From: Wielerella bovis
GTDB taxonomy: Bacteria > Pseudomonadota > Gammaproteobacteria > Burkholderiales > Neisseriaceae
Direction: 5' to 3'
Length of the DNA: 64,000 nt
Assembly (NCBI RefSeq): GCF_022354465.1
Contig: NZ_CP092361.1
Location: forward strand, 1,054,001-1,118,000
Shown: positions 4,380-63,825 of the stretch, in pieces
Numbering within the stretch: position 1 is the first letter of the stretch
Layout of the letters: every line of letters begins with the position of its first letter
Program-made: the position numbers and the translations under genes
Notes under the pieces: generated by a model
The model's database searches: none
Seen by the model: only the letters and a program-made list of their open reading frames with translations
Told to the model about the DNA's origin: nothing

Positions 4380-4574
4380 AAGGTAGTTTGGATTCTTTAA
4401 TCTAATATTTTCTATATTTAACAGTAATTTATTTTATAGTCGTTTCAAATACAAATAGTACAGCGTTGCCAACGCCCTTATGTACTAGATGTACACGGCG
4501 GTCGTTGTCGCCTTGTACGTGTTAATTTGAAACGACTATATTTGAAAATTGTCAGATGCAAGTATCAAATCTAC
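4380..4574. repeat. R5-family element (GTAGGTC ends), copy interrupted by a Correia-like element
   Basis: The two flanks (about 4380-4434 and 4541-4574) match, as one interrupted sequence, the dispersed element at 24250-24338 read in reverse. The left flank keeps GGATTCTTTAATCTAATATT and the right flank keeps ATCAAATCTAC. The Correia-like element at 4435-4540 sits inside it, so this copy is older than that insertion. Confidence 0.65.
4435..4540. repeat. Correia-like inverted-repeat element, copy A (106 bp)
   Basis: The element has perfect 16-bp terminal inverted repeats, TATAGTCGTTTCAAAT and its complement. Its core contains GTACAGCGTTGCCAACGCCC, TTATGTACTAGATGTACACG and GTTGTCGCCTTGTACG. 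Termini, size and core layout parallel Neisseria Correia repeat enclosed elements, but the sequence is distinct. It encodes no protein. It lies inside an older R5 repeat, with the element ends abutting TA. Confidence 0.85.
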
Positions 4575-5350: not shown

Positions 5351-5457
5351 TATAGTCGTTTCAAATACAAATAGTACAGCGTTGCTAACTCCCTTATGTA
5401 CTAGATGTACACGGCGGTCGTTGTCGCTTTGTATGTGTTAATTTGAAACGACTTATA
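5351..5457. repeat. Correia-like inverted-repeat element, copy B
   Basis: This is almost identical to copy A at 4435-4540, with the same TATAGTCGTTTCAAAT left end and the same core. The right end reads ATTTGAAACGACTTATA, carrying one extra T that breaks perfect pairing of the last bases. It is non-coding and lies about 250 bp upstream of dut. Confidence 0.85.
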
Positions 5458-10921: not shown

Positions 10922-11010
10922 TATAGTCTTTTTTTTAAAATTAAAATAATACAGCGTTATCAGCTCTCTTATTAGCTGTACACAGCAGTCGCTGTTGCTT
11001 TGTCTTATTT
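10922..11010. repeat. Correia-like element, truncated copy C
   Basis: It starts TATAGTC and keeps a degraded core (ATACAGCGTTATCAGCTCTC, AGCTGTACACAGCAGTCGCTG, TTGTCTTATTTTA). Its right end is interrupted by the complete element at 11011-11109 and is too degraded beyond it to be restored exactly. Confidence 0.6.
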
Positions 11011-11109
11011 TATAGTGAATTCAATTTAAACCAGTACAGCGACCGCCGTGTACACATAGTACATAAGGGAGTTGGCAACACTATACTGGTTTAAATTGAA
11101 TTCACTATA
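11011..11109. repeat. Correia-like inverted-repeat element, copy C-inner (99 bp)
   Basis: Perfect terminal repeats TATAGTGAATTCAATTTAAA and its complement enclose the same core as other copies, in the opposite orientation (AGTACAGCGACCGCCGTG, CATAGTACATAAGGGAGTTG). It has inserted in the edge of the older copy to its left. Confidence 0.85.
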
Positions 11110-25123: not shown

Positions 25124-25300
25124 TATAGTCGTTTAAAATAAAATAAGACACGGTGGTCACAATCACCTTGTCTTATTTTATAGTGGATTCAATTTAAATC
25201 AGGAGAAAGCGACAGCGACCGCCATGTACACATAGTACATAAGGGAGCTGGTAACGATGTACTGGTTTAAATTGAATTCACCATATTTTAAACGACTATA
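25124..25300. repeat. Correia-like element, outer copy D (interrupted)
   Basis: Outer ends TATAGTCGTTTAAAATAAAA and TTTTAAACGACTATA bracket a second element. Removing the inner copy and one TA restores TCTTATTTTATTTTAAACGA followed by CTATA, an exact complement of the outer left end. The outer element is therefore an older insertion that was hit by the inner one. It lies in the presumed leader of rnc. Confidence 0.85.
25179..25285. repeat. Correia-like element, inner copy D
   Basis: Ends TATAGTGGATTCAATTTAAA and TTTAAATTGAATTCACCATA surround a core with GACAGCGACCGCCATG, CATAGTACATAAGGGAGC and ACGATGTACTGG. It is flanked by TA inside the outer element. The termini are slightly mismatched, so it is not pristine. 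Confidence 0.8.
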
Positions 25301-33500: not shown

Positions 33501-33518
33501 TATAGTGAATTCACTATA
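33501..33518. repeat. Solo Correia-like terminal pair (TATAGTGAATTCACTATA)
   Basis: An 18-bp perfect palindrome consists only of the two element ends joined together with no core. It looks like the footprint of an element that lost its interior. It lies in the divergent gcvH-fabD region, where it could affect promoters. Confidence 0.55.
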
Positions 33519-37199: not shown

Positions 37200-38153
37200 T
37201 TATTCTGCCAACGCCGCACTCAATTCTGCAAACGAACACACCGCTGTCCCCAATTTTGCCACCACTACACCAGCCGCCGCATTTGCCGTGTGCATCGCAT
37301 CGCGCAAATCGTATCCCGCCGCCAAACACAAACCCATCGTTGCAATCACCGTATCGCCTGCACCCGAAACATCGTATACTTCCTGCGCGCGCGTGGGTTG
37401 ATGGTCAATTTGTCCTGCGCGATACAAACTCATGCCTTCTTCACTACGGGTAAGTAATAGCGCATCTAAATCCAAATCATCACGCAATTTTTGTGCTTTC
37501 TCCGTCAAACTGGATTCAGATGACCAGCCACCGACCGCTTCACGCAATTCAGCGCGATTGGGCGTGAGCAAAGTCGCGCCTGCATATTTATCATAATCCG
37601 CACCTTTGGGGTCAATCAACACCGCTTTGCCCAAAGCACGCGCAGCCGCAATCATCACCGCCACATCGCCCAACACACCTTTGCCATAATCCGACAAAAT
37701 TACCGCATCGTATTGCGCCACCAATTCAGCATATTTTTGCGCCACGATTTTCAGGCTGCCTGTATCGGGCGTTTCTTCAAAATCCAAACGAATCAATTGT
37801 TGATTGCGCGATAAAACACGCAATTTTAATGTGGTTGGAGCCGATGAACTGCGCAACAAATAATCGGCAATGCCATCTTGGCGCAACAAATCTGCCAAAG
37901 TATCCGCTGCTTCATCATCGCCCACTACCGATAATAAGGCGACTTGTCCGCCCAAAGCGGCAATATTGCGCGCCACATTTGCCGCACCGCCAGCGCGATG
38001 GTCGGTTTTGTTAATTTTTGCTACAGGAACAGGAGCTTCGGGCGAAATGCGGTTTACATCGCCAAACCAATAACGGTCGAGCATTACATCGCCCACCACC
38101 AACACTTTGGCAGCCTGAAAATCTGATAATAAGGGAGTGCGAGATAAAGTCAT
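37200..38153 (-). CDS. hldA: D-glycero-beta-D-manno-heptose-7-phosphate kinase
   Basis: This PfkB-family sugar kinase makes heptose 1,7-bisphosphate on the ADP-heptose route to the lipooligosaccharide inner core. The 317-residue product is a single kinase domain, not fused to the HldE adenylyltransferase. Features are LVVGDVMLDRYWFGDVNRIS at the N-terminus, GGAANVARNIAALGG, and the ATP-binding and catalytic motif DVSGAGDTVIATMGL near the C-terminus. An uptake sequence is read as DTGSLKIV. Two others lie near the ends, one coding DFQAAKV in the N-terminus. Other heptose genes are not in the window. Confidence 0.95.
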   Translation of the reverse strand: MTLSRTPLLSDFQAAKVLVVGDVMLDRYWFGDVNRISPEAPVPVAKINKTDHRAGGAANVARNIAALGGQVALLSVVGDDEAADTLADLLRQDGIADYLLRSSSAPTTLKLRVLSRNQQLIRLDFEETPDTGSLKIVAQKYAELVAQYDAVILSDYGKGVLGDVAVMIAAARALGKAVLIDPKGADYDKYAGATLLTPNRAELREAVGGWSSESSLTEKAQKLRDDLDLDALLLTRSEEGMSLYRAGQIDHQPTRAQEVYDVSGAGDTVIATMGLCLAAGYDLRDAMHTANAAAGVVVAKLGTAVCSFAELSAALAE

Positions 38154-38176
38154 AATAATGATTGTCCAAAATAAAA

Positions 38177-38202
38177 AAATCGGGGAAATTTTACCCCGAT
38201 TT
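38177..38202. terminator. Hairpin upstream of hldA
   Basis: AAATCGGGG and CCCCGATTT form a GC-rich stem with A/T-rich flanks. On the minus strand it would end transcripts arriving from the AhpD-like gene before hldA. Confidence 0.5.
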
Positions 38203-38246
38203 GTGGATTTTTGCTGGATTTAAATCTGCAAAAGGCAGCCTGAAAA

Positions 38247-38457
38247 TATAGTCGTTTCAAATTAACACGTACAAGGCGACAACGCCCGCCGTGTACAAAT
38301 AGTACATAAGGGCGTTGGCAACGCTGTACTATAGTAAATTAAAATAAGAAATCTGCTTCGTTGCCCACGCCCTTATGTACTATTTGTACACGGCAGGCGT
38401 GGTCGCCTTGCATCTTTCTTATTTTAATTCACTATATTTGTATTTGAAACGACTATA
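38247..38457. repeat. Correia-like element, outer copy E (interrupted)
   Basis: Its ends are TATAGTCGTTTCAAAT and ATTTGAAACGACTATA, as in copies A, B and H. It is split by the inner element at 38330-38436. Removing that element and one TA rebuilds the sequence of copy A in reverse orientation across the junction (GCTGTACTATTTGTATTTG). It lies between hldA and the AhpD-like gene. Confidence 0.88.
38330..38436. repeat. Correia-like element, inner copy E (107 bp)
   Basis: Ends TATAGTAAATTAAAATAAGA and CTTATTTTAATTCACTATA surround a core with GCCCACGCCCTTATGTACTA and TTTGTACACGGCAGGCGTGG. It is inserted in the outer copy with a TA duplication. This is the best-preserved nested pair. Confidence 0.88.
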
Positions 38458-38505: not shown

Positions 38506-39054
38506 TTAAGCAAACGCTTGCAATTCTGGATTGATTTCCGATTGCGCCAAGTTATTGGTGTAGTTGCACAAAGTTGCCAACGCCACGCCCAAAACCACTT
38601 CTACCGATTGCTGTTGCGTGTAACCCGCATCAAAAAATGCTTGCAACTGTGCATCGGAAACCGCGCCTTTGTTTTCCATCACGGCAATCGTGAAACTCGC
38701 CAATGCCGCCAATTTGGCATCATCAAATTCGGCTGGATTAACCGCGCGAGAGGCCTGAATCGCTTGTTCGGACAACAATTTTTTCAATGTCGCCAATTTG
38801 GTATGACCTGCCACGCAAAAACCACAAGCGTTGCGGCGTGCGGCGATGATTTGTACCACTTCGCGTTCGCCACCTGTTAAACTGGTCGCGCCGTTTAATT
38901 TGCCCACTTCTTGATAAAACGCCAATGCTTCGGGCGAATTTGCCAGCACGCCAATCAAATTAGGCAAAAAGCCGTTGGCATTTAAGGCAGCCTGAACGCG
39001 TGGTTTAGCGGCTTCGGGAGCGGTTTCTACAGTGTGTACGGGTAAACGTGCCAT
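38506..39054 (-). CDS. AhpD-like carboxymuconolactone decarboxylase-family protein
   Basis: This 182-residue all-helical protein of the AhpD/CMD superfamily has the redox motif ACGFCVAGHTKLA with Cys77, Cys80 and His84. The motif points to a peroxidase or disulfide reductase role rather than muconolactone decarboxylation. Also typical are GEREVVQIIAARRNACG and the second helix region QQSVEVVLGVALATLCNY. The ATG at 39054 is preceded by AAGGAAA; a start 13 codons earlier is not favoured. No ahpC gene adjoins it. The oxidative-stress role is inferred from the family. Confidence 0.9.
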   Translation of the reverse strand: MARLPVHTVETAPEAAKPRVQAALNANGFLPNLIGVLANSPEALAFYQEVGKLNGATSLTGGEREVVQIIAARRNACGFCVAGHTKLATLKKLLSEQAIQASRAVNPAEFDDAKLAALASFTIAVMENKGAVSDAQLQAFFDAGYTQQQSVEVVLGVALATLCNYTNNLAQSEINPELQAFA

Positions 39055-39284
39055 GATTTTTCCTTGTAAATAAATAATTGATGCAAGCATCATAACAAAA
39101 TAGACAGCTTGAATAAAGATTATATTTTCATGTATGTTAGAAGATTTTTTTATATGATTTTTTTGTCGTATTTGACGGGGTAGGACAGCCTGAAATTTTG
39201 CTTGTTGAATAAGCTATTTTTGGTTTTCAGGCTGCCTGTTGTAAAATGCAGCCTGAAAAATATCAATTGAATAAGGATACAAAT

Positions 39285-59901: not shown

Positions 59902-60063
59902 GAACCTGTATTCACAATCTTAATAACTTGTTTTTATCGCCACTTTATGCGCCTACTGCATTGGCTTTTCATGCCAATATGTTCAATATTGGCATGAAAA
60001 GTCGCCTTGTATCCGTAAAAATTGGCAATAAAATCAAGCAATCAATCTTATGAATACAGGTTC
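59902..60063. repeat. R2 inverted-repeat element, copy b
   Basis: It is nearly identical to 56190-56353, with GAACCTGTATTCA and TGAATACAGGTTC ends. TAA stands on both sides as the apparent target duplication. It lies just after hslR. Confidence 0.85.
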
Positions 60064-60077
60064 TAAAACTCAAAATT

Positions 60078-63637: not shown

Positions 63638-63723
63638 TATAGTTGTTTCAAATACAAATAGTGCTACAGTGTTGCCAACACTCTAGTGTTGTCGCTTTGT
63701 CCGTGTTAATTTGAAGCGACTAT
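63638..63723. repeat. Correia-like element, copy H with core deletion (86 bp)
   Basis: Ends TATAGTTGTTTCAAAT and ATTTGAAGCGACTAT match copy A, but about 20 bp of the core (the TTATGTACTAGATGTACACG segment) is missing. Confidence 0.75.
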
Positions 63724-63825
63724 CTTACTTCATACGACTACAATATTGCTTTTCAAGCCAATAGACCCGAAATTGGCTTGAAAATTTGCGTTGCATTATA
63801 TTAATATGGCAAATATGGATTCTTA

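Follow-up and report, generated by a model that had tools for sequence, protein, structure and literature searches.

Known since the 1980s, Correia elements alter the expression of nearby genes. They account for ~2% of the genome of the meningococcus (PMC3898611); the mechanism by which they are mobilised was undetermined in the account of Snyder 2009 (PMC2649163). A 2009 review proposes IS1106, a member of the IS5 family, for these elements (PMC3898611), and a 2022 survey of gonococcus and meningococcus reports insertion sequences of the IS5, IS30, IS110 and IS1595 groups, not IS630 (PMC9778887). For another short element, RUP, it is an IS630-type transposon, IS630-Spn1, that has been proposed to act in trans (PMC2229807, PMC3049150).

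The locus described here, at 38247-38457 of the window (the whole stretch of DNA analysed, 64,000 nucleotides), contains one Correia-type element within another. With the short form of Correia elements (CREE, NEMIS; 104-108 bp) the elements of this genome have in common their length (105-108 bp here), TATAG ends, TA duplication, a near-palindromic hairpin and the order of the core (…GTTGCC… / …GTACTA…GTAC… / …GTCGCCTTGTCC). They differ from the Correia elements of Neisseria in that the window's genome belongs to another genus and holds at least five terminal types, and in their core letters, element identity being 82-85%. The composite is very probably a non-autonomous Correia-type MITE inserted into another at TA, the most likely mover being an IS630-family transposase that acts on shared ends. 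What is new is that the IS630 family offers a candidate for the Correia transposase, hitherto missing; the literature search found no paper linking Correia elements to IS630, and, with most subscription papers outside its reach, priority remains unsettled.

Nesting at an exact TA

None of the short elements considered below is assigned a strand. The outer element of the composite (38247-38457) has type B ends (TATAGTCGTTTCAAAT), identical over 16 bp, and is split by the inner element at 38330-38436 (TATAGTAAATTAAAATAAG...CTTATTTTAATTCACTATA). According to the preliminary description, removal of the inner element with one TA kept rebuilds the outer one, and the coordinates given for this were correct: the two halves and one TA make 106 bp, which match the reverse complement of 4435-4540 without gaps at 103/106 positions, as against 101/106 when the halves are joined without TA and 103/108 with two. 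The reference at 4435-4540 is an uninterrupted type B element in the opposite orientation; an identical copy lies at G000:C1:499374-499479, many others are found at 83-98%, and three more genomic copies match the rebuilt outer element ungapped over 105-106 bases (L002 and L003 at 97.2%, L004 at 95.2%). The inner element has type C ends (TATAGTAAATTAAAATAAGAA), measures 107 bp and reads TATAGT...ACTATA, with 18 additional copies in the genome at 93-98% identity and near full length. The junction tests place the two copies of the duplicated TA target at 38330-38331 and 38435-38436. Both elements are predicted to form long RNA hairpins, much stabler than those of shuffled sequences (z -8.2 for the inner, -6.5 for the outer). 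The nesting at 38247-38457 is confirmed.

Two genes on the minus strand flank the composite: that for D-glycero-beta-D-manno-heptose-7-phosphate kinase (HldE domain I; 37200-38153, TIGR02198 E 1.2e-124), which starts 94 bp from it, and one of a peroxidase-related family (38506-39093; TIGR01926 E 1.8e-14, below its cut-off). They are not neighbours in the compared genomes, one genome per species being used, and neither a promoter scan nor Rfam gave anything useful.

The junction test was extended to 97 element copies, the flanks of each being joined with 0, 1 or 2 TA and compared ungapped against the stretches around copies from the window's genome, not the whole genome. Six copies (L012, which is the composite, L022, L025, L027, L052 and L082) scored 40-42/42 with one TA, at most 31/40 with none and at most 34/44 with two, so that the exact junction of the composite is not a matter of chance. 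Other elements are the targets of these insertions, save for L082, where the target is an unrelated repeat. A different family of dispersed repeats (…ttgatttTAttgcc…ggatacaaggcga…), seen at window 59969-60064 and at L082, L068 and L070, is a target of the elements. Copy L007 was rejected as a nested copy, its one-TA rebuild not being clean (34/42).

A systematic scan for reading frames broken by elements yielded one convincing case, most elements being intergenic: in a DUF559 gene with the element at G000:C1:296638-296744 inside it, excision of that element with one TA kept restores the conserved ...RFWNNEVLQNTEAVLEQ... The proposal that the family moved by insertion at TA, in the manner of Correia elements and Tc1/mariner-type MITEs, is upheld by the one-TA junctions in several nested copies, by the restored DUF559 gene and by an IS630 element (Tc1/mariner superfamily) with matching ends. 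An exact 2-bp TA duplication is the mark of IS630/Tc1-mariner transposition and not of IS5.

The window holds further elements of the family. A second type B copy, with a worn right end, lies at 5351-5453, and a worn type B element at 63638-63724; a type A element (11011-11109), its core shortened, adjoins a half element at 10922-11010. A second nested pair occupies 25124-25300 and consists of a palindromic outer element (72 bp when rebuilt), the ends of which are perfect inverted repeats (TATAGTCGTTTAAAATAAAATAAGACA), and a type A element inside it at 25179-25285 with the right end ACCATA; the best one-TA junction score of this pair is 33/42, and no full-length uninterrupted copy of its outer element was found among the sequences compared. 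At 33501-33518 stands TATAGTGAATTCACTATA, a perfect 18-bp palindrome made of element ends only, perhaps a remnant of deletion or excision.

Terminal types and membership of the Correia family

The pattern TATAGTNNATTN{60,90}AATNNACTATA has 120 matches in the genome and the pattern TATAGTNNNTTNAAAN{55,85}TTTNAANNNACTATA has 46, about 4 of which overlap the first; the reversed control gave 0 for each. At least 162 elements with both ends intact are therefore present in the 2.29 Mb genome. Their termini fall into at least five recurrent types, A (TATAGTGAATTCAATTTAAACCAGTAC / TATAGTGGATTCAATTTAAATCAGGAC), B (that of the outer element), C (that of the inner), D (TATAGTCGCTTAAAAT...) and E (TATAGTCGKTTAAAAT...), and the initial count of three kinds of termini was too low.

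Related elements occur in 36/83 Neisseriaceae genomes and 7/12 genera. Those of the largest genus read TATAGTGGATTAAATTTAAACCAGTACGGC...GCGACGAAGCCGCAGACAGTACAAATAGTACGGCAAGGCGAGGCAAC... and bear the Correia ends published in PMC2649163, the source of the end patterns used for comparison, with a limit of three mismatches for membership (PMC2649163). Type A ends lie within that limit, with 1 and 3 mismatches, and the ends of the outer (B) and inner (C) elements exceed it. The length expected of a CREE (104-108 or 153-157 bp) is met by the inner element (107) and the outer (106), most copies measuring 103-108 bp, and the TA target duplication by the junction tests. Homology of the core is likewise met, type A being 82-85% identical to the largest-genus elements over the full length, and types B and C about 83-86% identical to type A, again over the full length. 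Since type A comes within 1 and 3 bases of the published ends, the family is Correia. The term "Correia-like" was too cautious for type A, which is Correia by the published end patterns and by full-length similarity to the Neisseria elements; types B and C are divergent subfamilies.

The 107-bp consensus of type A is 100% identical in the window's genome and in a genome of another genus (G066, L086), an identity suggestive of transfer or activity in the recent past.

An IS630-family group with matching ends

A search with DDE_3 (PF13358) gave IS630-type matches in 29/83 genomes. One IS630 group stands apart in the orfB protein tree, at a fork supported 100/100 that also includes streptococcal and Moraxella relatives. 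Its members are elements of ~905 bp with orfA (helix-turn-helix; HTH_Tnp_IS630 PF01710 E 4.5e-25) and orfB (DDE_3 PF13358 E 4.1e-27) in different frames; orfB alone scores 99.9 bits with NF033545, the whole-protein cut-off of which is 100. The preliminary description had recommended a search for a transposase with terminal repeats starting TATAGT, and this group answers to it. In G015 the left end, on the transposase 5' side, is TATAGTCAATTAAAAATAAAATAGTAC and the right end TATAGTCAATTAAAATCAAAATAGGAC, with close variants in G027, G045, G021 (Neisseria elongata), G009, G067 and the window's genome; in the window's genome and its relatives these ends run TATAGT..AGTAC on the left and TATAGT..AGGAC on the right. 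Correia elements share this asymmetry, with GTAC on the left and GGAC on the right at the same positions as in the insertion sequence (IS). At position 12, moreover, the IS left end and type A both have C in the window's genome, and both have A in the largest genus.

When positions 7-27 of both ends were compared, the best match between IS and short elements was 27-32/42 for ten element types, as against means of 14.7-17.6/42 and a single best of 26 for nine other IS630 subfamilies. The observed score was reached by 0/20,000 shuffles for nine element types and by 3/20,000 for the tenth. Type C ends, those of the inner element, fit best (32/42) with the IS subgroup of G019, G037 and G052c, so that two classes of short-element ends parallel two classes of IS ends. 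The short elements have only ~27 bp in common with the IS, from which their cores do not derive, and they answer to the definition of a MITE of IS630: they are non-coding and have terminal repeats in common with an autonomous IS in the same hosts. An IS630 element present in 18 copies in the window's genome was rejected as the mover, its ends (TATAGGTGTAGAATTAAATAAACGGTAC) being a mismatch, and became a control. Its copies (G000:C1, L145-L162) are 896 bp long and >99% identical, and several lie inside Correia-type elements or dead IS copies.

The group co-occurs with the short elements. All 15 of the 83 genomes with the IS group carry short elements, compared with 21/68 others (Fisher p 4.6e-7). 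For the largest genus alone the figures are 11/11 with the group and 17/35 without (p 0.003), with no association between short elements and the other IS630 elements of that genus (p 1). These statistics control only in part for genome kinship, and the 15 genomes include G058, with a distant transposase and different ends.

Besides a remnant, the window's genome has five copies of the candidate IS (near 531, 674, 821, 1707 and 1928 kb); the window contains none of these. Compared with G067, which has copies with an open orfB and identical ends, each of the five lacks the same 5 bp in orfB, and all are dead. They occupy four different sites, two of them sharing an rRNA-operon flank, and a common deletion at four sites implies that dead copies spread, an inference that points to action in trans. 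Removal of the IS at L164 with one TA kept restores a Glyco_transf_8 reading frame, the single clear case of TA duplication by the IS itself; one weak match was the only relative found of the glycosyltransferase so interrupted. Short elements also occur in 21 genomes without a detected IS of the candidate group. From these 21 genomes and from the dead copies of the window's genome it follows that a present source is missing there.

These absences lend some weight to a different reading, that the short elements and the IS merely descend from a common ancestor, which would explain the ends, and that another, unidentified transposase moves or moved the short elements: the IS copies of the window's genome are dead, and several genomes rich in short elements, such as G066, have no detected IS of the group. 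Drafts such as that of G066 (~160 contigs), however, can lose repeated IS copies, and matching ends were found in no other IS630 group tested, which leaves this reading unlikely.

The candidate group extends to the gonococcus. In NZ_CP119142.1 and NZ_CP119140.1, N. gonorrhoeae chromosomes filed as plasmids, the transposase is found at ~65% amino-acid identity in 8 places each. NZ_CP119142.1 has IS630-family copies identified by transposase match (L296-L305, e.g. 37856-38392), of which six of 1057 bp are >=99% identical with flanks that differ (two share the left flank), and two more are partial; no feature is annotated there under the IS match, the gene table for this record being incomplete. 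Each of the six carries a 154-bp Correia element at TA in orfA. Without it, and with one TA kept, 905 bp remain, the length of the IS in G015, and orfA is restored through ...RNKALNYYGQCKN...; the uninterrupted site of G015, AAAC-TA-TTACG, is the empty partner, between species, of the filled gonococcal site. The gonococcal orfB has altered conserved residues (DNARFRR for DNARFHR) and is, by inference from these changes, probably inactive. In the IS copies of G028 (L203/L280) orfA carries a short Correia element (~106 bp) where the gonococcal copies have that of 154 bp, so that one site is taken by both the short and the long form.

It is likely, if less firmly held than the account of the composite, that Correia elements have in the IS630 group their autonomous partner and probable source, a group active or recently active in several Neisseriaceae genera, with the six gonococcal copies as fossils, each broken by a Correia element.

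Proposed mobilisation in trans and its precedent

An older suggestion is that the transposase of IS1106 (IS5 family) moves Correia-type elements, the IS630 end match then being incidental; the ends of IS1106 were outside the comparison. It was made in print from a similarity of Correia elements to the beginning of the gene for the IS1106 transposase (PMC3898611). That similarity, however, is in the gene and not in the ends, and insertion of a Correia element into the gene would produce it. Furthermore, the exact 2-bp TA duplication marks IS630/Tc1-mariner rather than IS5, and the end match and co-occurrence of the IS630 group far exceed controls; there is little left to recommend IS1106. A reading of the composite as a fixed unit, or as a product of assembly or recombination, spread by DNA uptake without insertion, is very unlikely despite the density of uptake-type repeats in the window, given uninterrupted outer and inner copies at many sites with different flanks and the TA-exact junction in the composite and five other copies. 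The uptake-type sequence, GGCAGCCTGAAA, has ~100 copies in the window, on both strands, and elements are frequently beside them.

The preferred reading remains movement by the end-sharing IS630-family transposase. TA-exact insertion, shared ends with left/right asymmetry and co-occurrence are demonstrated; that the transposase acts in trans on the short elements, binding, cutting and moving them, is inferred, without experiment. The transposase would bind the ~27-bp ends wherever an element bears them, cut at the TA borders and join the element to a new TA, cutting and joining at TA being the established mechanism of IS630/Tc1-mariner, and the short elements would supply nothing but their ends and a hairpin core. 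Nested pairs would result from the presence of TA sites within the elements. As the so far missing mover of Correia elements the IS630-family group is a strong candidate, and a candidate transposase with matching ends makes Correia mobilisation directly testable. If the reading is true, TA targeting is explained, the Correia family is extended to several genera, and the ends of the elements change with the transposase subgroup (GTAC/GGAC as against AAGAA ends).

Among described systems, the candidate shares with the IS630 family (Tc1/mariner superfamily) HTH_Tnp_IS630 and DDE_3 in two frames and a TA target. It is set apart by its Correia-type ends and by gonococcal copies that look decayed, with a Correia element within orfA. 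The RUP element of Streptococcus pneumoniae differs from the elements described here in its host and its unrelated sequence, and its link to IS630 is published, whereas one for Correia was not found in the literature searched. Yet RUP, like the Correia elements here, is a 107-bp MITE with a TA target and IS630-like ends (PMC2229807, PMC3049150), and in the orfB tree the streptococcal IS630 transposases share a large fork with the candidate group. By this analogy, the pair of RUP and IS630-Spn1 is a precedent for that of Correia and IS630.
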